DNA of 64,000 bases from Taiwanofungus camphoratus (taxonomy: Eukaryota > Basidiomycota > Agaricomycetes > Polyporales > Taiwanofungaceae), in assembly GCA_003999685.1 (NCBI GenBank), contig CP021227.1, forward strand, positions 1,736,001-1,800,000, read 5' to 3'. A program made the translations under genes and the position numbers. Below the pieces are notes generated by a model, which was given only the letters and a program-made list of their open reading frames with translations, was not told the origin of the DNA and did no database searches. Positions 2,087-18,100 of the stretch are shown here, in pieces; the first letter of the stretch is position 1, and each line of letters opens with the position of its first letter.

Positions 2087-3057
2087 GCGCCAGGCCCTTC
2101 TAGGCCCCGCAGAGCGCCCTCACTCGACCCTAGGACCTTAGTCATGGCTTCGACGCCACTCGACATGTCCGATACAGCCCGAAAAGCCACCGCGGGACTC
2201 TCCGATAGCCTCGAATCACGCCACCGCCACTCCGCCAGTTCCGGTCCGATGTTCCGGTGTACCGATCCCTCTACGCACAATACGCCACGCGCAGTTGCCA
2301 CTCAATGTCCTCGCACGTGACCGGTCTCGCCACTCCGATATCGCTCAATTTGCTACGATGCGCCACTCGATGTACTCGATAATGCTACGGCCCCAGGTCT
2401 TGTCTTAGTATATTTCATGCCACTCCATAATTCGTAGTACGCAAGAAGTTAGGATGCCACTCGTACTATGCCACTCCCGATGCGCCTTACATTATAGTAC
2501 AGTAGTATAAATGCGATGTATGGTGTCTCAGAACAACAGAGAAGTTTTCCCCTATCCTGCAGAGCTCAAGAAGAGCACCTTCGATTTAGTCACCTACTGC
2601 GTTCTACTGCGTCCTTCCGTCTTCGATTACGTTCGAAGAGTTGCGTCTACTATCTGCCTTCTACAGTATCTTGAAGGCTTGCGTCTTGTCCGTCTTCGAC
2701 ATCAGTCGAAGAAGTTGCGTTCAGTCTTACGCCCACCTTCGAGCCACATCGAAGGGTTGCGCTAGCATCTCCCTCTCTAACCCAAGTCCGCCTTCTACAG
2801 AAATTCGAAGGGCTGTATATCAGCTAAGTTCTCACGTTTAAGCCTCTCCCTAGTATAGTACAGCATAGTAGCGCATCGAAGCTACGTCGAGCAGTCGCGA
2901 CACACGTAGAGGGTCGTCGAAGACCTTCGTAGACGTCTCTCGACCCATTTGAGATCGGGAACCCTTTGCTGCTGACTCTCCCCTCCACACTAACTAGTTC
3001 TATAGCATTCCAGCTTCTCTAGGTCGTACCCAGTAGGGGTTGGAGTATTATAGTTCA
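2081..3057 (+). repeat. 3' LTR of the old Gypsy element
   Basis: This non-coding stretch of roughly 980 bp follows a polypurine tract, begins TGATAG and ends near ..GTTCA, next to LINE coding sequence. Near its end it has CTAGGTCGTA, which also occurs close to the end of the young element's LTR (in element orientation), so the two LTRs are related. It contains a cluster of GCCACTC words (about 2153-2478) and three hairpin-forming TTCGA/TCGAA units (about 2617-2760). No gene is seen. Confidence 0.6.
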
Positions 3058-4021
3058 CAACACCGGTGCAATGTAAACCCCAGATAAAATTGGGGATAAA
3101 CTTGAACCCTGGCCGACTCCGACATCAGATGGATCGGTCAAGGTGCCATTGAACAAGAAACGGGTTTTTCGCCCGATCAAGTAATTTGCCATGAAATTAC
3201 AGAGCTTGCTGTTGAAGCCCTGCTTTCGCATGATTCCTACCAGTGAATCATGGTTGATGGACGGGTAGAACTGTGACACATCGAGCAATAGCACCGATGG
3301 GATAAGGTTTTGTGCCCATGCCTCTTTGACATTGTGCACAAGCTGGATTCCAGCATCAGTGGTACTATGTTGCATAGCCCCACCGAACTGGCATGGGTAT
3401 AGGATTCCCCACTTCTGGGCATCCCACTGCATTCGTTTGGCAATGATCTTTTCAAACAATTTGCCAAAGCAGTTGAGCAAGCATATAGGCCTGTAGGCCT
3501 TTGCTAACGTATAGTCCGGTTTGTTCGGTTTGGGCAGAACCACCGTAACAGACCGTTTGAAGACGCTCGGATAAACCTCGAAATCGAGGCAAGCGTTATA
3601 GTACACGCACAGCCATTGCCACACGTGTATACCGAGATCGGTCTCGATGCCCTCCTCAGAGCACTCGATCCGGTCCACCAACCATTTGATCCACATCCAG
3701 TTCACATGATCGGGACCGGGTGCGGATGTATTGCTAGTGGATTTGAGATTCTCACGAATCTCAAACTCACTAATGTCAGATAGAGTCAATTCCTCCCGTT
3801 GAGGAATTTCGTCTACAAATGACAGATCCACCGGCCGTGGGTTGGCGGGTGTGAACTGAGCTTGAAAGGCATGACTGAGATCAGCCGCACTTTGGACTGG
3901 CGCACCATCAGCTTGGCGCAGCTGAATGGTGGCCTCTTGCCGTCTCGGCTTTGTCCATGCAACAAAGTCCGAGATCAGTTGAGGATTGGATTCATCCATG
4001 ATCCTATCAAAGTGTGCGCGC
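3058..4021 (-). mobile_element. LINE fragment: reverse-transcriptase half
   Basis: The open frame 3999-3058 encodes the front half of a non-LTR reverse transcriptase. Visible motifs in order are the N-terminal block around SAPGPDHVNWMWIKWL, the LP.PNKP...YRPICLLN block typical of LINE polymerases, CQFGG, the first metal-binding block LLLDVSQFYPSI, and the GVGQGSSLSPILS block. The FADD block and everything after it are missing because the old LTR element interrupts the LINE at about 3058; the rest would lie left of the window. Upstream codons run without a frame change to 4021, exactly where the young LTR element begins, and continue at 16097. This is therefore one LINE split by insertion. The layout (endonuclease then RT) and the motifs suggest the Tad1/I group; the clade is not certain. 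Confidence 0.85.
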
Positions 4022-5628
4022 TGATACGACCTAGGGGACCCTGGTACCTAGGGAGTGCTCCGCAACGTGGCTGGGGGTAGTGTGATAACTGTGAGGGTGT
4101 GAGGGTAGGAGCTACAACCTGTATGATACCGGGAAACCTGTATGTCTTGTTTTTGTAAGTAGGGGAGTAAGGGGTCAAGGGTCCTGCACAACAGGATCTT
4201 GTTCCTAAGTGCTATACTATCCCTAAGGCCTTGCGAGGCCCTCCGAAGTATGCGAAGTTCTTCGAGGTTTTGCGAAGTCCTTCGAAGTTTTAGCTAAATC
4301 GCGCGAGCTGACTTCGTAGATGCTGCGAAGTCCTTCTGGTTAGAGTTAGCTAAAGGGCGTAAGGTTTTGGAGTTTGTTAGAGCGAAGTGGGCGAGGTTTG
4401 GCTAGCGTAGGAGACCTGTAGGAGAGGTCGGAGAGTTCGAGGGCGTAGGGAGATGTACTATAGCCTGTAACTAAGGCTATGGGCGAGTCGTAGGGCTATT
4501 CGTAGGACGTAGGGATAATGCAACGTGAGCCTAAGGGTATAACTAAGGCAGAGGCCCACCGGATAGGTGCTATAAGAGGTGCCGAAGGGTGCGAAGTCAC
4601 GGCGACTTTCGTAGATCGTAGTGCGTAGTTCGGGAAGCGTAGACGTGGTTCGTAGATATATCACGAGCGTAGACGTAGTTCAAAGGTACTGAAATGAAGC
4701 TGGGGTGGAGACTTAGGGACCTTAGGACCGTTCCTAAGGTTGTACTCGCGGCGCTTTCCTGAGATCGGAGCTACAGGGGAACTGGTATTCCAAAGAGAGA
4801 AGCGTGCACTGAGGGGTCTCTCTTGTACATAGTAAACTACCTCTGACTAAATAGGGGAACGTGAGGTGAACTAATCTTGCGCGAAGCGATCCTTACGAGT
4901 CCGAAATGTGTACTAAAGCGCATGGACTCCGAAGTGAACACGAGGAGGATAGGAACTAATTAGGAACTGAAACAGGGGAACTACGTACGGTAGAAAGGTG
5001 ACCAAGTTCATTCACGAGGGCGGGATGACTATCCGAGAGCAGCCATGCGCCGTGATCACCTATCTTAGTGGGCTAAGAGCGCACGAAGTCCTTAGCAGCG
5101 GGACTTGGCCTAATCGGGGCAGGAGGTGTCCTAAATGGGTGGAGGGTCATATGGGTACGTCCTAGGATGACCTTATGGCATAGGATCGAGACCCATGGGG
5201 GTGCACAAGGCTTCCTAAGTCCAACTTCCGGAACTTCGGACCGTTTCGGAGCCTATCGGAGGTAGCTGCAATCACAAGAGCTAGGAGAGACTTAGCTAAG
5301 ACTTCTTAGCTAAGCCCGGGATGAGTGACGTAGTAGATAGGACCTAGATCCAATGGAACAGTATGGGAGGGCCGGCAGTGTCCGATAGTGGACTTAGCAG
5401 GAGTTAGGGACTTCGCGTCTAGCATTCGAAATCTCGTAGCACCTCGTGTGACTTCGCAAGACTTCGTAGGGTGTTAGGAGGGTTTAGGAAGGAGAGGGGG
5501 CGTTAGGAATATTATAGGAACCTATTCCTCCTGTCGTAGGCTGTAGGAGAGTCTTAGAGTGGTCGGTTGGGGGATTAGAAAGCTCCTAAAATCGCGATTC
5601 GGGGGCCAGGAGGCTACGGGACTCATCA
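4022..5628 (-). repeat. 3' LTR of the young Gypsy element
   Basis: This LTR is 1607 bp and is matched line by line with 14490-16096 at an offset of 10,468. It begins TGATACGACC and ends GACTCATCA on the plus strand. It is rich in CGAAG and CGTAG words. Small open frames inside (for example 4458-4664) recur identically in the other LTR and are not genes. Given its position it could also serve as the upstream region of the plus-strand gene starting at 5797. Confidence 0.92.
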
Positions 5629-5664
5629 CCTCCTCCCTATTGAAATCCTGACTGTCCTCAGTCA
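5629..5664 (-). other. 3' polypurine tract of the young Gypsy element
   Basis: Read on the minus strand, tttcaatagggaggagg lies directly before the TGATGAG start of the 3' LTR, the expected place for the plus-strand primer of reverse transcription. A near copy, including about 19 further flanking bases, lies inside pol at 9146-9181. Confidence 0.7.
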
Positions 5665-5796
5665 GTGTGCGCGACCGTGGGAACTTGTAGCCTATCGCGT
5701 CCGATCTGCGAAGCGGGCAATATCCTGATAGAAGCTAATTGTGGGTGCCTCTTATCTTTTTCTCCTTTCTCCCCTTTTGCCTTTCCCTTCCCCATC

Positions 5797-7174
5797 ATGT
5801 TCGACGATATGGACTCTGATGGTGTTGGCCTAGCTCACAGCGATGTCCTGGCGCTCCTCGATTCTCGTCCGGAGGGCGTAGCGGAGGCCGAAGATTATCT
5901 GCGGTGGGCGAGGAACTTAGGACGTCGTGTGGTATGTATTCTCCTCGATCGCTCGATACATCGTCTTCACTGCGTTATAGGGTAACTGGCGGGTCCTGTC
6001 CCAGGCTTCGAACGCTCCTGCCGATCCTACCTTAGAGGCCGCCATCGTCGAAGGTTTGACGGCGATCCTCCCTCTCGCGGACTCGTCGTGGATCTCGTGG
6101 GCTCGCACCGGTTTTCCTCAGTTCGCCGCTATGCTTCAAGAGCGAGATGCACAGCGCGAACTCGCCCGCGCGACCGAACGACTTCGTGCGGAGGCGGTCG
6201 AGCGCGCTGCGCTTGAACGCGCTGCCCAACTTGCGGCTTCGTCTTCTGCTCCCTCACCGGCCCCTAGTCGTACCTCATCGCGCACTCGTCGTCCCTCAGC
6301 TCGGGCCAAGGCAGCAGCTTCTACTCGTGCGGCTTCCCAGGCCAGCTCGATCATGGCCTCCGTTTCTAGCGGCCAAGTCGGTGAACTCGCCTCGTCCACT
6401 AGTTCGGGTGTCTTCGTAGGGGTCCCTCCTACTCCGGGGAAGGACACTGCGAAGGCGAAGGCTCCTCCGACGCCCGAAGCCCTGGCTAACATGGCGAAGG
6501 CGGCGGAGCATAGGCGAACTCATGCGAAGGTGAGTGCACGTCCTTTTCGTGACTGTTCGCGGCTTATCATTGCTACCTAGTGCGATCGCTGCAGCACCTA
6601 CACCGCAGACTTCGAGTGCGAACTCCCCGCGGGCGCCGTGAAGTGTGGTAAGTGCCTGCGAGAGTCGCAGGGGTGTTATTGGGGCGGATTCTCCGTAGAC
6701 GGTAAGGAGCGCGGCGTGCGCGTTTCGAAGCGTGGTAGGGCTTCTCGTGCCCTCGTTATCGCGACATTGCTGATGTTAAGACGTTCCCTAGCTGCGGGCC
6801 AACCTCCTCAGGTGTCCCCGCCTCGCGCCCGCGAGTCCAAGAAGGCGAAGTCGACCCCTGCGCCTACGATGTCGCTCGAGGCCTCGCTGGCCCTTAACGG
6901 CGCCGAATACTTGGACGGCCTCACCCCTGCGCATCAAGCCGTTGTCGAAGGCCTCTGGTATGACCGCGCGATGGCCGAGAGTCGCGCGATGCGTCTCAAA
7001 GACTACATCTCGGGGCTCTATCGTGCCGAAACCGCCCTAACCGGTCGTACGCCTGCGCCGCTCGACTTGAGCTCTCTCCCCCTTCCTCGCCGTCGCGTCG
7101 CCGCCTCCTCTACCGATCCTGGTCCCTCTGGTGAGTCCGAGCAGGATGAGGAAGATGCCGAGGCCGAGGTTTAG
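5797..7174 (+). CDS. Accessory antisense gene inside the Gypsy element, Zn2Cys6-like
   Basis: On the strand opposite to gag and pol, between pol and the 3' LTR, lies an open region starting at ATG 5797. It is preceded by a strongly CT-rich leader (about 5755-5794), a common feature of expressed fungal genes. It is open in three blocks separated by two short gaps with good GT..AG edges (near 5933-6004 and 6532-6580), which look like ordinary spliceosomal introns. The start is acidic (MFDDMDSDG). The middle block is Ala/Arg/Ser-rich and probably coiled-coil or disordered. The third block opens with six cysteines spaced C-x2-C-x8-C-x8-C-x2-C-x6-C, close to the fungal Zn2Cys6 binuclear cluster (usual first gap x6). 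The end is acidic and stops at 7174. I do not recognise a named family. It could be a captured host gene or an antisense regulator; the function is unknown. Confidence 0.55.
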
Positions 7175-7706
7175 AAGGTGGGGGGTTCGTAGTTCGTCAT
7201 CTCGCCCGTTCCGTATCTGTCGCACCAACGTGCTGTATTCTCTCTCGTTGCACGTCCCTTTGCTAGGGACCTTTTCCAATCTGTGTACAGTAGTCTGAAT
7301 AAAGCGGACGCAAACGTCGTCCTTGTGAAAAGGTTCCTAAGTGTGTGAAGTAACCAAACAACACAGCGAAGAATTAGAAGACTTAGGGGGATAAAATGCG
7401 CTCATTTAGGCTCAGTAAATCATCATGGCCTTGAAGGGCTTAAGGCCCCTCGCGCAATCTTCGCTCCGCTCGGCGTTTTAGGAGCCTTTAGAACGATATC
7501 GCGACTTCGTGAGTTGAATCACTATAGTAAAAAGTAGGAGATGTTGTAAGTAAAAATTCGTAGACATTCGGAACTTCGTAGCTGTCAAAACTGAGTGGGG
7601 GCTTGTTGGGGAATGTAAAACATGACCAAAGGGTAAGCGAAAAGTAAAATGGACGTAGCGTAATCTTAGCTAAAGTCGGGGTATCGTCGATTGCTCCTCC
7701 GATTCT
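7175..7706. other. Non-coding gap inside the Gypsy element
   Basis: About 530 bp lie between the stop of the antisense gene (7174) and the stop of pol (7707), which face each other. No open frame or recognisable motif is seen. It probably holds the 3' ends of both transcripts. Confidence 0.5.
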
Positions 7707-10700
7707 TTAGTGAGATTCGGATGGACTAGAGCCGGACTTAGGAGAGTAGGGATACGATCCTAGTTCTTCGTCATCGCCTTGGGTGGTAGTCAGCTCTAGT
7801 TCGCGAAGTCGCTCCGTCGACACGTCCAGGAGTTCGGTAGGAAGTTCGAGGGCTTTTCGCGCTAAGTAGGGGATGACTCGGAAGGCTGCCGTAGGCCTGT
7901 CGAGTACCGAACCATCCAATTCGCATAGGATATAAGCACCACCTTTGTTTCTAGATACCACGAGTATCGGGCCGAGGTAGCGAGGTCGCATCTTCCGATT
8001 TAGGGACTTTTCTATCTGCGTGTTGCGAATTAGTACTAAATCGCCCTTTTCGAAGTTGAAATCGTGGATGGAGTGCTTATGCTTTTCTTCGAATCGCAGA
8101 GCAGCTTGTCTTCGCGCTTCGTAGACCTTCGAATGTAGTTCCGCTACCTGAGTCACCCGCTTTTGCAATGCGATAGCTCGACGTGCGATAAGATCGGTCG
8201 TGGATAGCATAGAAGACGGAGGAGGAAGGATATAGGTGGCCTCTACGACGTCCAAAGGGATAACAGGGTGGGTGCCAGTGACCGCGAAATAGGGCGAACA
8301 TCCCATGCGCTTTCGAGTCGTGATCCTTTCGGACCAGAAGACTGAGTACGTTGCCTGAGACCATTTAGACTCTTCGCCATCCACAGCCTTGAATAGAGCC
8401 TGCCTAACATCGAAGTGAGGCCTCTCCACCAGTCCGTTGGCACGCGAATTGTATCCGCTAATTCGGATGTGTCGTAGCTGGTACTTCTTCGCTATGTAGT
8501 TCGTAGCTTTTACGAAGGGAGCGCCGTTGTCCGTGACTATCTCCGATAGCGCACCCCACCTACAAACAAAGTCTTCGAAGAGCCATTCTGCCAAAGCTTT
8601 AGCCGTCTCCTTGCGAAGCATCCGAAATTCGGGGTACTGGGTTAGAGAACACCGGCCTTGCACCAAGTACCTAAATCCGTTAGAAGGGGGCATATGCATG
8701 GTATCTATATGAACCTTTGCGAAGATCGGAGCGGGCATAGCGACCGTAGGCGGGATTAGGATCTGCCGCACTTGGCGAATCTGGCATAGGTGGCAGCTTC
8801 GAACATACCAGGCAATGTCGATATGATGGTAGGGCCACCAAAACCGCTCCGAAATCAGCACCTTCGTAGCGTGTATTCCTCGATGCGCGACTGCATCGTG
8901 ACATTCTCGGAGGATTCGTAGACGATCTGCCTGCTTTACAACTAGTTTGTGAGCTCCTTGTGGATCTTTGCGCCATAGTATGTCCTCGTCGAGGAAGAAT
9001 AGAAGACAGTATTTTACGAAACCTTCGTATTCTGAATCCGATAGGTTGGCAGGTCTCGCGAGGCTTCGTAGGAATTTTGCTACTAAGTCAAGTCTTGCGT
9101 CAGCTTCCTTGGCCATTTCGGATCTTGGGACGCTATCGTAGCTCTCCTCCTCCCTATTGAAACCTTGGCTGTCCTCAGCCAACTCGGAGGCGAAGGTTGG
9201 AGCTATCGGAGGTGTGGGGGTTGTGATAGGAATGTTAGAGGCGAATTCGTAAGGGAATAGGGTAGAAATCGATGGTATAGGATGGGAAGGGGGGGCTTGG
9301 ATGTGATGTAGAAACGAGTGCATTTTGTCTATCCAGTCTTCGAAGTCTTCTTCGCTGCTCTCTTCTTGATCTCCTGGCTGGGGGGTTCGTCTTGATAGTC
9401 CATCTGGTCCATGCATCGTACCTGGTACATGTACTAGGGTGAAATGGAATGTTAGAATCGATACGATCCAGCGATTTATACTCGCGCTGGGCGCGATGTC
9501 CGGATTTTGCAACATCCCTTTGATATAGCGTGCGTCCACTTCCACTATAAGGTTCCTAACTCCGATTAGGTAGATTCGTAGTACGCGAAGTGCTCGAAAC
9601 AATCCGTAGATCTCTAACTTCGGTTGCGAGAACCTCCGCTCGCGATCATTTAGGGTGATGGATCCGAAACGATTGTAGAATCGGACTTTAGGGTTGTCCT
9701 CATCGCATTGGCAAAGGTGATAGCCAACTGCAATATAGGAGGTGTCAACCGCTAAGATCACGGGCGCACCTGATGAATAGTTAATGGATCGGAGAGCTGG
9801 AGAGGACAGCAAAGCATCCTTAAGGTCCTCTTGCGCTGCGATTTGCGCTGGACCAAATTCGAAGGGTACCGCCTTTCGCGTTAGGCGTACTAAGGCATCT
9901 GCACGATGCGCGAAGTTTCGGATGAAGATACGGACCACTCCAATGGTTCCTAAAAAGGCTCGAACGTCAGATAGGGTCGCACAAGGTCCCCAGTTGCGTA
10001 TGGCTGCAACACGAGACTCGTCCGGTAGGCGACCTTCTGGAGTACACCGATGCCCCACAACGGTGATTTCGCGGGCAATTAGAATGCTTTTAACTCCAGA
10101 AAAGGTACCTCCTGCGTAGCGCATGCGTGTGACTATCCTATTGAGGTTCGTAAAATGTTCCCAAACAAACTTTCGAATGCCTGGGTTCTCCGAAATAGGT
10201 ACGAGATCGTACGAACTTTCAGGGCCTTTGACCGGAACATCGTCGATATAGGGAACTGTTAGGTGAGGAATTTCGGGCTGTAGGATGTGCGTAACATCAT
10301 CGTGGAAGATAGGGACCGAGTTGGTCCATCCCATAGGTAGAGTGACCAATCTCATAGCTCCGAAAGGTGTTTGAAATGTCGTAAGATCGCGCGAAGTCTC
10401 CGCTATCAAGCGTTCATCATAGCCTACATATAGATCCAACATAGCACCACAAGGTCGTCCTCCGAACTGTTCTGCGAGGTGTTCGGGAGTCGGGGGAACG
10501 CCTGAGTGTTGAATCGTGACAGCGTTTAGGGGTTCCAGACTATGTACGAGACGTAGGGACTTTCCGTCTTTCTTCACCACACAAAACCATCGTGAACGAT
10601 AGGAAGAATTCGAAGGTTCGTAGACCCCCGCTGCGATCTTCTTTTTGATTATTGCGCACACTTCGTTGTAGATTCCGGGTGGGATAGGAATGTTCTTTTG

Positions 10701-11561
10701 TACCCATGGCGTGTGCGGTACTACCGGAAAGTCGATGGGAGGGAAGTACTCTGGCTTGAAGCACCCTCTTTCGGAATCATTCCAAGCGAACGCATCAGCA
10801 TGCAGGGTCATAAAGTGATGTAGGAGGTCCCTCTCTGCTGGTTGTAGGAAGTCTCCACTGTGTAGCTTGTCCGTGAGATCGTGCCGTTCTCGCGTATATC
10901 GCAAAGTAGGTTCGAAAGGTGGTGGAGTCGGTGATAGGGTAGGCATCGTTGCTAAAGGGTCGCCTTTAATTTCGCGAATGATTCGGAATCGTTCGTCCAA
11001 AGCTCCCAGAATAGGGCGAGTCTTCAGTGCTACGGGCTTGTACTTCTTTTTCGATGCTGCAAATGTAGGAATAGGGGAAGAATCTGACAACTTAGGAAGG
11101 GATACCCTCGGATTAGGAGCAAGGGAGGGTCTTCGGGCTGACTTCATGACCTTCGTAGCGTTCCTGGGACCTGGAATGGGGATAGAGGAAATGTTTCTAG
11201 AGGTGGAAAGCGAAAGCATAGGGAGAGAATTCGGATCATCGTGTGAAAGGGAGGGAACCTCGGGCGGTGTTGCTGCTGCTAGAAAGCCAGATAGCCACCT
11301 AGTATGATCAGCAGGACCTTCCGAGACTTTCGAAGATTCACTAAAATAGAGAGACTGCAGATAGCTAGACACAGAGTTAGAGACTGATAGATAGAGCGCA
11401 GGAACAGAATTGTTATCTGCTGCATTTACAGCAGCGAAAGACACAATTTTAGGGGTATCGGATTCATACTCAACGACCAGGGCGACCTCTCCTTGATTTC
11501 TCAAATCCTCGAAATCTAAAAACCCGATCGCAAATGATTCGAAGAGTTCGCGTGGGGGCAA
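7707..11561 (-). CDS. Gypsy pol: reverse transcriptase, RNase H, integrase
   Basis: This 1284-residue open frame belongs to the young LTR element. Domains in order: an N-terminal linker; reverse transcriptase with the PYIDD catalytic block near 10,240; RNase H beginning around ILAVDTS near 9750; a linker near 9150-9400; the integrase zinc finger of H-H-C-C type (HRGIHATK...CHLC near 8790-8900); the integrase core with HIDTM, TDNGAPF and VERPH as the D, D, E residues (about 8720-8400); and a C-terminal GP..VV..ELDG module. No chromodomain is obvious. The frame overlaps the end of gag by about 46 bp in a different register, the arrangement in which this family uses -1 frameshifting. The ATG at 11561 may therefore not be the true start of translation. 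The frame is open throughout. Confidence 0.92.
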   Translation of the reverse strand: MPPRELFESFAIGFLDFEDLRNQGEVALVVEYESDTPKIVSFAAVNAADNNSVPALYLSVSNSVSSYLQSLYFSESSKVSEGPADHTRWLSGFLAAATPPEVPSLSHDDPNSLPMLSLSTSRNISSIPIPGPRNATKVMKSARRPSLAPNPRVSLPKLSDSSPIPTFAASKKKYKPVALKTRPILGALDERFRIIREIKGDPLATMPTLSPTPPPFEPTLRYTRERHDLTDKLHSGDFLQPAERDLLHHFMTLHADAFAWNDSERGCFKPEYFPPIDFPVVPHTPWVQKNIPIPPGIYNEVCAIIKKKIAAGVYEPSNSSYRSRWFCVVKKDGKSLRLVHSLEPLNAVTIQHSGVPPTPEHLAEQFGGRPCGAMLDLYVGYDERLIAETSRDLTTFQTPFGAMRLVTLPMGWTNSVPIFHDDVTHILQPEIPHLTVPYIDDVPVKGPESSYDLVPISENPGIRKFVWEHFTNLNRIVTRMRYAGGTFSGVKSILIAREITVVGHRCTPEGRLPDESRVAAIRNWGPCATLSDVRAFLGTIGVVRIFIRNFAHRADALVRLTRKAVPFEFGPAQIAAQEDLKDALLSSPALRSINYSSGAPVILAVDTSYIAVGYHLCQCDEDNPKVRFYNRFGSITLNDRERRFSQPKLEIYGLFRALRVLRIYLIGVRNLIVEVDARYIKGMLQNPDIAPSASINRWIVSILTFHFTLVHVPGTMHGPDGLSRRTPQPGDQEESSEEDFEDWIDKMHSFLHHIQAPPSHPIPSISTLFPYEFASNIPITTPTPPIAPTFASELAEDSQGFNREEESYDSVPRSEMAKEADARLDLVAKFLRSLARPANLSDSEYEGFVKYCLLFFLDEDILWRKDPQGAHKLVVKQADRLRILRECHDAVAHRGIHATKVLISERFWWPYHHIDIAWYVRSCHLCQIRQVRQILIPPTVAMPAPIFAKVHIDTMHMPPSNGFRYLVQGRCSLTQYPEFRMLRKETAKALAEWLFEDFVCRWGALSEIVTDNGAPFVKATNYIAKKYQLRHIRISGYNSRANGLVERPHFDVRQALFKAVDGEESKWSQATYSVFWSERITTRKRMGCSPYFAVTGTHPVIPLDVVEATYILPPPSSMLSTTDLIARRAIALQKRVTQVAELHSKVYEARRQAALRFEEKHKHSIHDFNFEKGDLVLIRNTQIEKSLNRKMRPRYLGPILVVSRNKGGAYILCELDGSVLDRPTAAFRVIPYLARKALELPTELLDVSTERLRELELTTTQGDDEELGSYPYSPKSGSSPSESH
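9146..9181 (-). other. Candidate central polypurine tract in pol
   Basis: Inside pol, in the linker between RNase H and integrase, the minus strand reads tttcaatagggaggagg, identical over 17 bases to the 3' polypurine tract at 5629-5645. The next 19 bases are similar as well (about 14 of 19 by eye). The position, near the middle of the element at the start of integrase, is where Ty1 and lentiviruses carry a second plus-strand primer. Confidence 0.5.
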
Positions 11562-14449
11562 CTATGATGATGGGCTGGTAAGAACTTTTGACGTCCTCGA
11601 GGCATCGTAGGGATGGTCGCGACTTCGCTCGTGTTCGGGCATACGATCGTGATGGTCTGCTCCTCGTTTCCGAAGTTCTTAACCACACTCTCGGTTACCA
11701 CATCGAAGGGTCGGCCTAGAAGGATATCGTAGGAGGGATTGCGTATGACGTGTATCTGTAGGTACAACACGATGTCGCCTACTTGGAACGAGACATTTCG
11801 AACCAGTCCTAAAGAACGGTCAATACTGCCATTAGCAGACTGCATATTTAGCTGCACGGAAGGGTCGTAAATTAGCCCTAAGGCATGACAGACTTGCTCT
11901 GACATCGCAACCACTTGTGACCCAGGGTCCACGATGCATTCGATTCGCTCTTTGTTGTCGATTAGGGCTTCGATAGAACGGATAGAATTCGAGTCGCGGG
12001 CTACTATGATTTCGGAGGGTTCTTCCTTTCCGGGTACGTGTCGTAAGTACGTTTCGTAGGGGTCTGGAATTATGGTCGAACCAGGGACAAGGGGTTCACC
12101 GTGGCACGATAGTTCGGAGGTTGCTAGCGTCGTTTTAGAAGCGAGATCGTCTGAGAGTTCCGTAATTTGAGCCATATGAGTAGCCTTAGGATCCATAGGC
12201 ACACGTTTAGGGGTGATAGCCTCGCGATATCGCGCACGAACATCCGGGGATATAGATAGTAGCTCCTCGGGCGTTAGTGTAACCACTGGTGTTCTCATAG
12301 ATCGCGCGAATATTTCCTCTGTAAGTTTCTCCTGATGAACCGGTGTGATCGTCTTATAGGCCATGTCCTTGCCTTTGTCTGCTGTAGGCTTCGGAGCTGC
12401 TGCGAAATTTCGAAGATTCGGAGGTGCGTAAGTAGCATCTCGAGCATTAGCGAAAGGATGAACTGGTGGAGTGGGCGGTGGAATGGCTGCCTGTGATGCG
12501 GGTTGGGCTGGTACGTTAGGTGTAGACGAGGCATGCTCCGATGAGTTCGTGGGTGGATCGGACGCATTCGCAGGCTTCGGAGGCGACGGCGCTGAATTAG
12601 AAGGATAATTGGATCGCCTTAGAATGGTAGGAGGGGTCTGGTTCTGCGCCTCCGCCACTGGGGCATCTTGGTTAGCAGGGGGATCCACTACTGGATGCTG
12701 AGCGCGTCCTATCGGAGGTGCGTTGGCTAAGGGTGGGTTTCTAGGATCAGACTGCGCATTAGGAGCACCCTGCCTTCTGTGCTGGGGTACTTCCACACCA
12801 TCGAAGACTTCGCGACGTCTCCGAAGTTGGTAAATCTCGTGTTCTAAAGCGGCTATACGATCCTCGGCGGATAGTGAGAATGCGGGCACATTTAGGCGAT
12901 TGTCGATTTCGAATAGGAGCTGTGGGGAGGAATTCGTGCCATTTCGTCGATGATATTCGTAAAGCCTATCGCGAATCGTACGTCCTGGGATCGTTCTGGG
13001 TACGAAATTTCCATTTGGCAGCACTATCTTTCCATCTGGGTTGCGCTTGCACTTGCCATCCTTGATGTCTTGCTCAATGTGCTTGCAACACCTAGTGCAG
13101 CAGTCCAAGTCCCCGCAATAGTGACAGTACTGGCCTTCTACATGAGTGTGCTCGCCGCGCGAGCTGTCCAATCGAGGGGGTCGCTGGTTCGCAAGAACAG
13201 GAGCTAGCGCACTGGTTACGGACTTCGTGAGGATCTCTGCGAACGTCTGTAGATCCTCTATCTTTAGCGATGAGCCCCCCACGGGCATGGTAGTGGTCGA
13301 AGTAGTTACAGTCGTAGCAGAGGTAAGAGTCGTAGAAGTACCAAGGAGTACGAACTTTGCTGCGCTATGTAGCTGGTCCAAGGTGTAGGGATCATCGGGT
13401 AAGTGATCAGGGAACTTTAGCTGTAACCTAGTAGACACGCGAGCCCACAGCGAAGGCTGGAAGGCCCTCGTGAAAGCATGGCTTTGCTCGATAGTAGACA
13501 ACCTATTTTTCGAAATTAGGTACTTCGTGATGGCATAAAACTCACGATAGAAGCTTCCTAAGTCTGCCGCATTGTTGATTCCAATTCTAGCACGTTCTCC
13601 TATCAACTGATCCAAGTCGGACATAGACCACATTCTATCATCCTCTGTGCCTGGGTAGAGGCTTCTAATCTCCTTCTTGAAGTCTTCGTAGGTCTTCGTG
13701 ACATCGGAACACTCAGGGAGGGACTCCCATAGGTCCGAAACATCGATAGGAGGGTAGCGAGTAGTCCAGTGTTTCTTCGTCGCCTCATCCGCTATCTGGC
13801 AGCGGACAAAAAGTGACTCTAAGTCCTGGAAATACCTTCGGATGGTCCTAGGCTGGTCAGGATCGAAGGTGGGGGATGTACGATCTCCTCGAGGCGGCAT
13901 GAGTGGAGGTGCGTTCATGGTTGACACAGAAATAGGATTTAGGGGATTAGCTAAAATGGGTGCGGTCAGAGATGGGTTCGAAGCTGAGTTGATGCTAGCT
14001 GAAGAAGATTGGGTCGTAGAAGCGTCGGAAAGTGTAATAGAAGGAATCGGAGGGGAACGCGAAGCTGATGGGAGCGTAGAGGATAGCTGAGGGGATGCCG
14101 GTAAATGGACTAAGATAGGGTCAGATGCTGAAGAAGGACCGCTTCCTTCGGAGGTGTTAGGAAGCTCAGGGGACGTGGACTGAGGTTCGAAGTCCTCAAT
14201 TGGTGAGTCTTCGGACGTGGTAAGCGTGTCTAGAGACCCTTCGAAAAGAGCCTCAAAGTCGGGGGTCAATTCGGAAGATTCGAGTGTAGAAATGATATCG
14301 GAGGGGATAGTCGTAGGTGTTCGCGAAGAGGTGCTTCGTGGAAGGCCTGCTTGAGTATAGTAACGATAGCCAACTTGAAAGAACTCGGATAGTAACTGAT
14401 CGCTGTTTCTCGGAGAGGACTGGTTAGACGTAGGATGATCTGAAGGCAA
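11516..14449 (-). CDS. Gypsy gag with aspartic protease
   Basis: This 977-residue open frame begins only about 40 bp inside the 5' LTR edge. The first 200 residues are Ser/Pro/Thr-rich and disordered. A capsid-like region follows (about residues 200-370, including IRRYFQDLESLFVR). Next is a cysteine/histidine-rich segment near 13,050-13,130 (CHYC...CC..CC.H) that may be a nucleic-acid-binding knuckle of unusual spacing. A short Arg-rich coiled segment and a long Pro-rich linker come next. At the C-terminus there is an aspartic protease with the active-site block IVDPGSQ (near 11,940). The frame ends inside the start of pol, giving a gag-protease / RT-integrase split. It looks whole. Confidence 0.88.
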   Translation of the reverse strand: MPSDHPTSNQSSPRNSDQLLSEFFQVGYRYYTQAGLPRSTSSRTPTTIPSDIISTLESSELTPDFEALFEGSLDTLTTSEDSPIEDFEPQSTSPELPNTSEGSGPSSASDPILVHLPASPQLSSTLPSASRSPPIPSITLSDASTTQSSSASINSASNPSLTAPILANPLNPISVSTMNAPPLMPPRGDRTSPTFDPDQPRTIRRYFQDLESLFVRCQIADEATKKHWTTRYPPIDVSDLWESLPECSDVTKTYEDFKKEIRSLYPGTEDDRMWSMSDLDQLIGERARIGINNAADLGSFYREFYAITKYLISKNRLSTIEQSHAFTRAFQPSLWARVSTRLQLKFPDHLPDDPYTLDQLHSAAKFVLLGTSTTLTSATTVTTSTTTMPVGGSSLKIEDLQTFAEILTKSVTSALAPVLANQRPPRLDSSRGEHTHVEGQYCHYCGDLDCCTRCCKHIEQDIKDGKCKRNPDGKIVLPNGNFVPRTIPGRTIRDRLYEYHRRNGTNSSPQLLFEIDNRLNVPAFSLSAEDRIAALEHEIYQLRRRREVFDGVEVPQHRRQGAPNAQSDPRNPPLANAPPIGRAQHPVVDPPANQDAPVAEAQNQTPPTILRRSNYPSNSAPSPPKPANASDPPTNSSEHASSTPNVPAQPASQAAIPPPTPPVHPFANARDATYAPPNLRNFAAAPKPTADKGKDMAYKTITPVHQEKLTEEIFARSMRTPVVTLTPEELLSISPDVRARYREAITPKRVPMDPKATHMAQITELSDDLASKTTLATSELSCHGEPLVPGSTIIPDPYETYLRHVPGKEEPSEIIVARDSNSIRSIEALIDNKERIECIVDPGSQVVAMSEQVCHALGLIYDPSVQLNMQSANGSIDRSLGLVRNVSFQVGDIVLYLQIHVIRNPSYDILLGRPFDVVTESVVKNFGNEEQTITIVCPNTSEVATIPTMPRGRQKFLPAHHHSCPHANSSNHLRSGF

Positions 14450-14462
14450 TGAAATCTTGACT

Positions 14463-14489
14463 GCTCCCCCTCGCGGTGGGCTCCAGAAA
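14463..14489 (-). other. Candidate primer-binding site
   Basis: Directly after the 5' LTR (read on the minus strand) the sequence runs tttcTGGAGCCCACCGCGAG. A TGG four bases inside the LTR is the usual start of a primer-binding site complementary to a tRNA CCA end. I could not name the tRNA, so self-priming or a diverged site remains possible. Confidence 0.4.
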
Positions 14490-16096
14490 TGATACGACCT
14501 AGGGGACCCTGGTACCTAGGGAGTGCTCCGCAACGTGGCTGGGGGTAGTGTGATAACTGTGAGGGTGTGAGGGTAGGAGCTACAACCTGTATGATACCGG
14601 GAAACCTGTATGTCTTGTTTTTGTAAGTAGGGGAGTAAGGGGTCAAGGGTCCTGCACAACAGGATCTTGTTCCTAAGTGCTATACTATCCCTAAGGCCTT
14701 GCGAGGCCCTCCGAAGTATGCGAAGTTCTTCGAGGTTTTGCGAAGTCCTTCGAAGTTTTAGCTAAATCGCGCGAGCTGACTTCGTAGATGCTGCGAAGTC
14801 CTTCTGGTTAGAGTTAGCTAAAGGGCGTAAGGTTTTGGAGTTTGTTAGAGCGAAGTGGGCGAGGTTTGGCTAGCGTAGGAGACCTGTAGGAGAGGTCGGA
14901 GAGTTCGAGGGCGTAGGGAGATGTACTATAGCCTGTAACTAAGGCTATGGGCGAGTCGTAGGGCTATTCGTAGGACGTAGGGATAATGCAACGTGAGCCT
15001 AAGGGTATAACTAAGGCAGAGGCCCACCGGATAGGTGCTATAAGAGGTGCCGAAGGGTGCGAAGTCACGGCGACTTTCGTAGATCGTAGTGCGTAGTTCG
15101 GGAAGCGTAGACGTGGTTCGTAGATATATCACGAGCGTAGACGTAGTTCAAAGGTACTGAAATGAAGCTGGGGTGGAGACTTAGGGACCTTAGGACCGTT
15201 CCTAAGGTTGTACTCGCGGCGCTTTCCTGAGATCGGAGCTACAGGGGAACTGGTATTCCAAAGAGAGAAGCGTGCACTGAGGGGTCTCTCTTGTACATAG
15301 TAAACTACCTCTGACTAAATAGGGGAACGTGAGGTGAACTAATCTTGCGCGAAGCGATCCTTACGAGTCCGAAATGTGTACTAAAGCGCATGGACTCCGA
15401 AGTGAACACGAGGAGGATAGGAACTAATTAGGAACTGAAACAGGGGAACTACGTACGGTAGAAAGGTGACCAAGTTCATTCACGAGGGCGGGATGACTAT
15501 CCGAGAGCAGCCATGCGCCGTGATCACCTATCTTAGTGGGCTAAGAGCGCACGAAGTCCTTAGCAGCGGGACTTGGCCTAATCGGGGCAGGAGGTGTCCT
15601 AAATGGGTGGAGGGTCATATGGGTACGTCCTAGGATGACCTTATGGCATAGGATCGAGACCCATGGGGGTGCACAAGGCTTCCTAAGTCCAACTTCCGGA
15701 ACTTCGGACCGTTTCGGAGCCTATCGGAGGTAGCTGCAATCACAAGAGCTAGGAGAGACTTAGCTAAGACTTCTTAGCTAAGCCCGGGATGAGTGACGTA
15801 GTAGATAGGACCTAGATCCAATGGAACAGTATGGGAGGGCCGGCAGTGTCCGATAGTGGACTTAGCAGGAGTTAGGGACTTCGCGTCTAGCATTCGAAAT
15901 CTCGTAGCACCTCGTGTGACTTCGCAAGACTTCGTAGGGTGTTAGGAGGGTTTAGGAAGGAGAGGGGGCGTTAGGAATATTATAGGAACCTATCCCTCCT
16001 GTCGTAGGCTGTAGGAGAGTCTTAGAGTGGTCGGTTGGGGGATTAGAAAGCTCCTAAAATCGCGATTCGGGGGCCAGGAGGCTACGGGACTCATCA
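14490..16096 (-). repeat. 5' LTR of the young Gypsy element
   Basis: This 1607-bp copy is nearly identical to 4022-5628. It begins TGATACGACC and ends GACTCATCA on the plus strand and is followed by the GCGC target duplication (16097-16100). Transcription of the element would start within it on the minus strand. Confidence 0.92.
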
Positions 16097-18100
16097 GCGC
16101 TTCGCCCGCTTCGTGGCAAGGTGAAGTGTTGTACGTTGTTTATGTCGCTCAGACCGAAGTTCGGCAGCAACATCGTATGTGTCTGCAGTGGCCTGAGCGC
16201 CAGGTCCCAACTGATGACGTAGGTAGCGATACTGCCCAGACGCCGCACTAAGACGGTGCTGGGTGTTCGCAAGCTTAGTGGCCGCACGGGAGCATGCAGC
16301 ATCCCACCACGACTTTGATCATTTGGATGGACGCTTCACTGATGAATACTCCATCCATAGTCGTTGGAGGTCTCGCTCAAGGCAGTCCCCCATCCGTTCA
16401 ACGCCTTGAGCGCTGCTGAAATGTGTAGGGTAATCAGCAAACAATTTCGCCGTTGCTGTCACAAATTGTTGGGCCGCGTCGCTGGTGCGAGGTATACCCC
16501 ATACTGGTTCTGGCTCAACTTCAATCGGTATCTCCCACCGCAGGACCGCATGGTCGCTGTTGTGGTGATGTGACATGAATACATGAAGGTCTTGGCCTTC
16601 ATAGTACACTGGGTCGATCCACATCAAGTCAATGACTCCAGGCGTGAGAGCAATATTGTGGGAACGCCAAGTGACTGGACCATCCTGGGCGTTCATCAAG
16701 ACCAAATCGAGCTCGGCCTGGGCCAGCTCGATAAGGCAATTGGAATCAGCGTAGTGCGGAGGCCGCACCCGAGATCCCACAGCACATGTATCCCACAATG
16801 GGTGGCGGAGATTAAAATCCCTGCACATGCACGCAATGGGTGAAAGCACGTGGACACGTGTTTCCAAATATCTGACAGCATCGAAGGTGGTGCTGTCGTT
16901 GTACACGTTCAGGACATTGAAGTCCCCGGATGGAAGCTTAAGCGCTACCAAAAGGCAATCCTTATGGGAGACGCTATGGGTGACAACTTGCGGAGAGGCC
17001 GAAGCCCACCGCTTGTTGACATAAATGGCAACCCGGGAATCTTTCGATGCCCTGAGGCACTTGAACGAGGCGTGGGCAGACGTATTCTCATACGCCTCCC
17101 CTTCCCGTGACTTAGCTGAGGCCACATCCTTGATGCGACCCCAGAAGATCTCCTGGACACAGATAATATTGGCGTCCCTATGTCTCTCGAGTAGAATGCT
17201 CATATTCTCCGCAGATTTCTGAACATTCGCACTTATGCATGTGAGTACAGGCCTGGTAGGCTCGTCTCTCAGATTGTCGCCATCAGCCGTAAAGCTGGGC
17301 GTATGGGAGGGGTCTGCTTCCACCATCATGGGGGAATCAGGCCGTTCAATAGGTTGTGAGGCCGGCAGAGTTCCAAACGGTGGGGCCGAAGCACCGTCGG
17401 AAGAATCCGGTTCACACACTGACTCATCAAGCCCACAGGGGTTTGGTGGCGCTGAGCCCGAACTGGTGTGCCATGCACTTCCAGCATGGGCAAGGGGCAT
17501 GGGTACAGTAAGGCTGTCTCCACTACCATTGTATTCGTTACCCCCTCCCCTATAGGGAGAGGGCCTACAAATCCTTTGTGAATCCTCTGGCACTATGGCC
17601 GTCGATTCAAGGAGAGGACCTCCCAAGAGGGAGGAACTTGAAGTGGAACTCTCCCCATGATAGGGTGAGTTCAAAGGTGTGTCCGGAGGACGAGAGCTTG
17701 GGGGTTCCAAGTCGGCTTGAGTGCGATGAGCAGGGCAGCCGCCATGCACCGACATCGCACTCGACGAGGAGGGTGCACCATCAGTCTTAAGACCAACAGC
17801 GGCTATAGGGGCACCAGTAGGGGAAGAAAAGGATAGGATATGAGGTGATTTAGACATGCTGGGCACGGGCGCTAAATCGAGATGGTGGTGGTACTATCGT
17901 GTGACACCACTTTGAAAAGGACCCAGTGTTTGAGAATGGCTTATCGCAAACTCTCCTTGGGATATTCTCAAGATCAGATGGTGTCTAAAATAGTCTATAA
18001 AATCATGCAACACAACTGTGTTCTCCGATTTTAAAGAGAGGGAGTGTGTAGAGAACAAGTTCAATATAAGTGTCAGAAAATCTATTAATTAGGCCGATCG
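16097..18100 (-). mobile_element. LINE fragment: 5' end with endonuclease
   Basis: The minus-strand open frame starts at ATG 17866. About 210 Ser/Pro-rich residues come first, followed by an exonuclease-endonuclease-phosphatase (APE-type) domain. Visible catalytic blocks are SANVQK, ICVQEI, CRDFNLRHPLWD (GDFN in most families, here with Arg for Gly), VIDLMWI and SDHAVLRW. An in-frame TGA lies at 16319-16321. Beyond it the frame runs on (SKSWWDAAC..., a typical linker after the endonuclease) to 16097, where the young LTR element interrupts it, and resumes at 4021. The LINE is therefore dead through this stop and through two insertions. Sequence from 17867 to about 18,100 is presumed 5' leader; the exact 5' end is not defined, and no separate gag-like ORF1 was seen. 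Confidence 0.85.

Follow-up and report, generated by a model that had tools for sequence, protein, structure and literature searches.

Open reading frames lying antisense between pol and the 3′ LTR (aORF-3R) are described from plant Ty3/Gypsy retrotransposons, namely gene23 of Grande and those of RIRE2, Retand (TRP28) and PvRetro13 (PMC7264820, PMC11963269). As these sources present them, such frames are found in most copies of an element, and the protein of Grande is nuclear (PMC7264820, PMC11963269). Sequences outside the elements are lacking according to the review (PMC7264820), and the word 'intron' is absent from the main text of the Retand paper (PMC11963269). Among fungi, the Gypsy element Boty of Botrytis cinerea carries an extra gene in antisense, brtn (PMC7264820, PMC8365987, PMC4227169, PMC5987419). 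In HTLV-1 the HBZ gene is antisense to gag-pol, its transcript is spliced and starts in the 3′ LTR, and its product acts on the LTR (as given in PMC3185765).

We analysed a stretch of 64,000 nt from Taiwanofungus camphoratus (contig CP021227.1, positions 1,736,001 to 1,800,000; hereafter the window), in which a Ty3/Gypsy element on the minus strand carries a gene of this kind on the plus strand. Like the plant frames, as far as their descriptions go, the gene belongs to a Gypsy element, lies antisense between pol and the 3′ LTR and is present in most copies; it differs from them by three to four conserved introns, a cluster of six cysteines (Cys6) and a single-copy relative outside the elements. 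No match to TRP28 (PF04195, Retand-type) was found at E ≤ 1 in three spliced proteins. With brtn, compared by description alone, it shares being an antisense gene in a fungal Gypsy element, except that the host of Boty is an ascomycete. The source cited for brtn is reportedly Zhao et al. 2011. The likeness to HBZ, as far as that gene is described, is that of an intron-containing gene placed antisense at the 3′ LTR (splicing here being read from the sequence), but HBZ is a bZIP protein with its start codon in the LTR, and no bZIP match was found at E ≤ 1 in the three spliced proteins of the antisense gene. HBZ appears to be the closest working parallel, and the plant frames together with brtn the closest structural class. 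The literature, as covered by titles and abstract openings and with subscription papers mostly outside, gave no description of an antisense gene with introns or a Cys6 cluster from a Gypsy element of a basidiomycete. The earlier note had proposed the gene as something undescribed; this holds for the introns, the Cys6 cluster and the relative outside the elements, which are new within a known class, and not for the position, since antisense frames between pol and the 3′ LTR are already described from plant Gypsy elements and Boty (PMC7264820).

The element is delimited by two LTRs of 1607 bp each that differ by 1 mismatch, and it is young. It belongs to what we call family A, and its parts, together with those of the antisense gene, are given below.

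4022..5628, minus strand: 3′ LTR, family A, 99.94% identical to 14490-16096, with TG..CA termini and GCGC at the outer flanks of both LTRs
5629..5641, minus strand: polypurine tract directly inside and adjoining the 3′ LTR, in element sense AATAGGGAGGAGG
5629..5796, plus strand: leader of the antisense gene, 168 nt, CT-rich at about 5755-5795, upstream of the ATG at 5797
5797..5931, plus strand: exon 1, with a homologous exon in L015 (48.7% over 39 aa) and in family B
5932..5980, plus strand: intron 1, 49 nt, phase 0, GT..AG in the window and in 12 of 12 other family-A copies
5981..6529, plus strand: exon 2, in which length differences among copies are 15 or 3 nt
6530..6580, plus strand: intron 2, 51 nt, phase 0, ending where the codon of the first cysteine follows, with GT..AG borders kept by the window and by 11 of 12 other family-A copies
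6581..6734, plus strand: exon 3, with the six-cysteine cluster C-x2-C-x8-C-x8-C-x2-C-x6-C, a domain aligned in 19 copies
6735..6791, plus strand: intron 3, 57 nt, phase 1, seen from divergence in older copies and matching introns of family B and L015
6792..7174, plus strand: exon 4 including the stop codon, with a charged stretch and an acidic tail
7707..11561, minus strand: pol as a single ORF with RNase H and H2C2 integrase zinc domain (Pfam PF17919, PF17917, PF17921)
11562..14489, minus strand: region from pol to the 5′ LTR, gag by position alone, parts of which are 70-74% identical at the DNA level to four family-B loci
14490..16096, minus strand: 5′ LTR, the pair of the 3′ LTR

Other features of the window may be noted here. 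The Gypsy element is nested in an apparent non-LTR (LINE-like) element on the minus strand (3055-4021 and 16097-17900), one side of which has an RVT_1 ORF while the other is assigned without a domain match. A truncated family-B Gypsy pol (96% to L026, RT region) followed by polypurine-like repeats lies at 295-1863 on the plus strand, and no antisense gene is seen beside it. The polypurine tract of the 3′ LTR (5626-5664) has a copy inside pol (9143-9181), both with an upstream hairpin that reads TGACTG-AGGA-CAGTCA at the LTR and TGGCTG-AGGA-CAGCCA inside pol (window and L016), which is a compensatory pair change; the observation also concerns L010 and L019:6831, and the copy inside pol looks like a structured central polypurine tract. 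An Rfam search of the window gave 0 matches.

From the sequence evidence that follows, we regard it as confirmed that a real protein-coding gene lies on the plus strand at 5797-7174, opposite to gag-pol and between pol and the 3′ LTR. It has four exons and three introns, and its spliced protein is of 406 aa. With the LTRs mapped and the gene model in place, the position adjoining the 3′ LTR given in the earlier note stands, as do the ATG after a CT-rich leader and the six-cysteine spacing, which is exactly C-x2-C-x8-C-x8-C-x2-C-x6-C in the exon 3 translation (CDRCSTYTADFECELPAGAVKCGKCLRESQGC). Two gaps with GT..AG edges had also been described. Both exist as introns, the second at 6530-6580, but the acceptor of the first had probably been misplaced and the third intron at 6735-6791 missed. 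The acceptor at 6004 was dropped for 5980, as its AG reads AA in 5 older family-A copies while all 13 copies (the window and 12 aligned) have AG at 5980; on this comparison 6004 is probably wrong and 5980 correct. Intron 3 escapes the eye because its length is a multiple of 3 and it is open in young copies. On reading through it, an early stop is met in L009, L011 and L012 and none in L010, L013 and L014. In the 5 older copies divergence is 25-42% for intron 1, 18-29% for intron 2 and 21-33% for intron 3, against 13-26% for the exons. Of the 39 family-A intron cells (three from the window and 36 from the 12 other copies), 38 have GT..AG borders, the sole exception being intron 2 of L014, which ends in AT.

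In 8 of the 13 family-A copies the spliced frame is free of stops, and each of the other five frames of these copies has 4-17. The remaining five copies are older and have 1-7 stops in the spliced frame, with frame-breaking lengths also in L013 and L014. Coding on the sense strand of the same DNA (env-like) was considered and rejected, as every reverse frame in all 13 copies has 4-21 stops. A chance ORF was also rejected, given the spliced frame open in 8 of 13 copies, the dN/dS values and the pattern of codon positions (see below). The leader is less diverged than the exons in all five older copies (7.8-23.5% against 13.2-25.8%); in 7 young copies this is not always so, the leader being higher in L002 and L008.

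We then surveyed the genome from which the window comes (33.2 Mb in 15 contigs), all counts being lower bounds. The Cys-cluster exon protein has at least 112 matches, with 63 covering all 197 residues of the query and 60 of these free of stops; it may be noted that intron 3 is part of exon 3 as read in this count. For the C-terminal part of pol, at least 102 matches were obtained. In 97 of the 112 cases the exon match is antisense to a related pol match and within 3 kb on its 3′ side, so that the related elements envisaged by the earlier note do carry the antisense frame. Conversely, 96 of the 102 pol matches have an antisense partner; two of the six partnerless places (C1:276749 and C8:78749) gain one by eye with a family-B query. 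Only 2 exon matches are on the same strand as a pol. The frame therefore lies antisense between pol and the 3′ LTR in most copies, the LTR position being that of the window. As a contrast set, 150 integrase zinc domains out of 362 candidates were scored, none of them in the pol set, and 4 had an antisense match within 4 kb. Two of these are family-A exons beside the pol of another family and two are one inverted pair on C5. As the contrast set is nearly devoid of antisense matches, the gene is, within the reach of the queries, a mark of one clade, a statement that covers homologues of the queries and would let an unrelated antisense gene of other families escape. In decayed pol copies the stops are mostly TGA, as would be expected from CpG decay of CGA codons.

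Beyond family A, the gene was found in families B (L018, L021-L028) and C (L019, L020), whose order with A is not resolved in a rooted RT tree. The A and B proteins are identical in 86 of 347 aligned residues (25%). In family B, the gene as modelled for L023 consists of five exons; three of its introns (1, 3 and 4) correspond to introns 1, 2 and 3 of family A in position and phase. Across 11 distinct modelled B loci (L029, L031 and L038 coincide with L023, L026 and L028, so that each pair counts once; L018, L022, L027, L033 and L034 are outside the models) with four introns each, the borders are GT..AG in 43 of 44 intron cells and GC..AG in 1, and 5 of the 11 loci are open from start to stop. 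The intron 2 position is common to families A and B, L019 of family C and L015, with exon 3 starting directly after the intron in all of them, while L020 is cut off at that point. Three introns alike in position and phase are thus present in family A, in family B at 25% protein identity and in the single-copy L015, so that the persistence of introns through retrotransposition, which the earlier note had proposed, is supported. They are copied along and not spliced from the element RNA because the RNA genome is the opposite strand, where the introns stand as reverse complements. In the cysteine domain, all 19 aligned copies share five of the cysteines and one Tyr without exception, and the first cysteine is kept in at least 90%. 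The alignment was made from 22 places, with L018 at 5001, L019 and L025 at 5297 left out for stops; by eye, the six cysteines are in place in these three also. The acidic tail is present in family A and L015 and is shorter in family B. A family-B start codon about 16 nt from the LTR was also considered; it is true of L023 only, other B copies having about 200 nt more. In L023, pieces of family-A LTR (1-685 and 7120-7477) flank a family-B internal region without a gag match, and from this arrangement L023 would be a chimeric or nested element.

To judge selection, dN/dS was calculated between copies. For the antisense gene, the window gives 0.21, 0.19 and 0.17 against the older L009, L010 and L011 and 0.06 and 0.07 against the young L003 and L008, while the pairs L009-L011 and L010-L011 give 0.27 and 0.30. 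With the exon borders of acceptor 6004, the values for young pairs are 0.16 (window-L002) and 0.17 (L002-L003). The pol values against the window are 0.25 (L010), 0.23 (L011), 0.23 (L014) and 0.13 (L013), with 0.13-0.14 in young copies; against family B they are 0.03-0.05 where dS could be computed, dS being saturated. Shifted forward frames of the antisense gene give 0.94-2.08. One reverse frame has a low dN/dS of 0.20-0.29, yet 11-21 stops, and its low value arises because its wobble positions coincide with those of the gene. Changes at codon positions 1, 2 and 3 number 43, 25 and 91 in L009 and 51, 40 and 126 in L011, so third positions change most. The signal is weaker inside family B (0.34-0.65), as partly expected from the decay of copies after insertion. 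Neutral substitution across copies, which would have spoken against the gene, is therefore not what we see; the protein is conserved, with dN/dS of 0.17-0.30 between older A copies and subfamilies, and the pattern of substitutions indicates that the gene is under purifying selection. It was also observed that the synonymous divergence of the antisense gene exceeds that of pol in the same copy, about twofold in L010 and five times in L011 (0.597 against 0.114 over 280 pol codons). This suggests that the 3′ module is exchangeable between elements, at least in L011.

The six cysteines had been taken in the earlier note for a Zn2Cys6-like cluster. Zn2Cys6 domains (Zn_clus) have the spacing C-x2-C-x6-C-x5-12-C-x2-C-x6-8-C. 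Like fungal factors of this class (Gal4-type, PF00172), the protein has six cysteines, a CxxC in each half and an acidic tail; unlike them, it has 8 residues between the second and third cysteines in place of 6, in 19 of 19 aligned copies, with no Pfam match and no profile similarity beyond the cysteines. PF00172 is matched neither by the 19 domain copies at E ≤ 10 nor by the three spliced proteins at E ≤ 1. The genome itself has 48 Zn_clus places with 37 over the cut-off, as fits a fungus, and all 48 are more than 500 nt away from the 112 antisense-exon places. On aligning the profile by hhalign to 16 of these 48 domains, several of which are without their first half, we obtained a score of 16.6 and a probability of 11% with the six cysteines in register. 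In 40 shuffles that keep the cysteine columns the median score was 11.9, with 90% at 19.1 and a maximum of 21.5, and in 40 full shuffles the maximum was 13.5; the match is better than random columns and no better than the cysteines alone. Given the spacing, Pfam and profile results together, we do not file the domain as Zn2Cys6, although it may work like one. The PDB sequence search with the Cys domain gave 0 matches at E ≤ 10, and an IMG/VR search for relatives gave 25 pattern matches, none confirmed. A structure prediction of exon 3 without alignment had a mean pLDDT of 53, too low to be informative.

The relative outside the elements, L015, lies on C3 at about 1,164 kb. Its product has 384 residues; of the aligned positions, 150 of 374 are identical to the window protein and 97 of 345 to that of family B. 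Its exons 3 and 4 are at C3:1164019-1164627 with the earlier exons upstream, and its introns of 51, 53 and 72 nt are at the same three positions and phases as in family A, the third having a weak donor and being placed by analogy. Its 9.8-kb locus showed neither a direct repeat of at least 30 nt nor, at E 1e-3, a match to pol. In the genome it has a full-strength match to itself only, followed by A copies at about 40%, and its upstream flank also matches only itself. On the 3′ side there are pieces of RNA12-family and SSF-transporter genes. A dispersed repeat, about 310 nt long and possibly a SINE, lies in its downstream flank (about 5949-6260 of the locus) and has 26 further matches in the genome. 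Nine of the 15 exon matches unpaired with pol were fetched as loci (L007, L009, L012, L013, L015, L016, two in L017, and L027), and L015 is the sole one without LTR and pol hits; the other 6 resemble A (C1:3711214) or B sequences. In an unrooted protein tree L015 is on a long branch meeting the short C rows, and the direction of transfer is not fixed by it. L015 is either the progenitor that was captured or a copy that was domesticated. The introns may mildly favour the capture of a host gene, because the origin of an intron-containing gene in the element would then be explained. A bolder scenario, which we consider unlikely, is that a host regulator was captured whole in antisense with its introns, which this orientation then preserved over many cycles of reverse transcription, and diversified along with the element families as a regulator of the LTR while L015, the cellular copy that survives, kept the same targets, or, in reverse, that L015 was domesticated and restrains the element. 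If true, host and element would be tied in a duel of regulators.

For this gene of a Ty3/Gypsy clade, we see about an even chance that its antisense transcript is spliced to encode a nuclear Cys6 regulator of the element's own LTR. The transcript would start in the 3′ LTR or in the 168-nt leader and would be spliced and translated into the 406-aa nuclear protein. This would begin with a putative helical domain and carry basic stretches, a Cys6 cluster that would bind zinc, a putative helix in its C-terminal part and the acidic tail (helices and basic stretches as read by eye). By acting on the element's own LTR promoter, it could provide feedback or latency control, and it would work like deltaretroviral HBZ without any relationship to it. 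Neither Pfam nor PDB gave a relative pointing to function. Another possibility, which we rate as somewhat unlikely, is that the protein serves the retrotransposition cycle, e.g. as a nucleic-acid chaperone or as a nuclear-import factor of the pre-integration complex, with the Cys6 cluster as a knuckle binding RNA or DNA. The strength of selection, similar to that of pol, and the departure of the spacing from Zn2Cys6 are consistent with this, and plant antisense frames have been proposed to act in retrotransposition, as put in the review (PMC7264820). However, a separate antisense transcript is an odd route to a particle protein, and the acidic tail and conserved leader would fit a regulator better.

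It is also conceivable, though quite improbable, that the antisense RNA is what matters, forming dsRNA with the element RNA and tuning silencing, with the ORF being secondary. Such a transcript would overlap the genomic RNA, and a role of this type has been suggested for other antisense frames in the review (PMC7264820); yet selection at the codon level, the 15- or 3-nt indels within exon 2 and cysteines invariant across families would be left unexplained. The existence of a single-copy, LTR-less relative might suggest that a segment of a host gene is passively carried by a few copies (transduction), which together with a chance ORF we regard as highly improbable. The copy survey speaks against it, with the gene beside 96 of 102 related pol matches, and so do the introns kept at 25% protein identity and the dN/dS of 0.17-0.30.

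The origin and function of antisense accessory genes in LTR retrotransposons are open questions. As the single-copy relative lies outside the elements, the choice between capture and domestication becomes answerable by synteny in related fungi, and a single small Cys6 domain, together with its LTR, makes the function open to test. With introns kept in conserved positions, the antisense strand of a retroelement appears to offer them a refuge.
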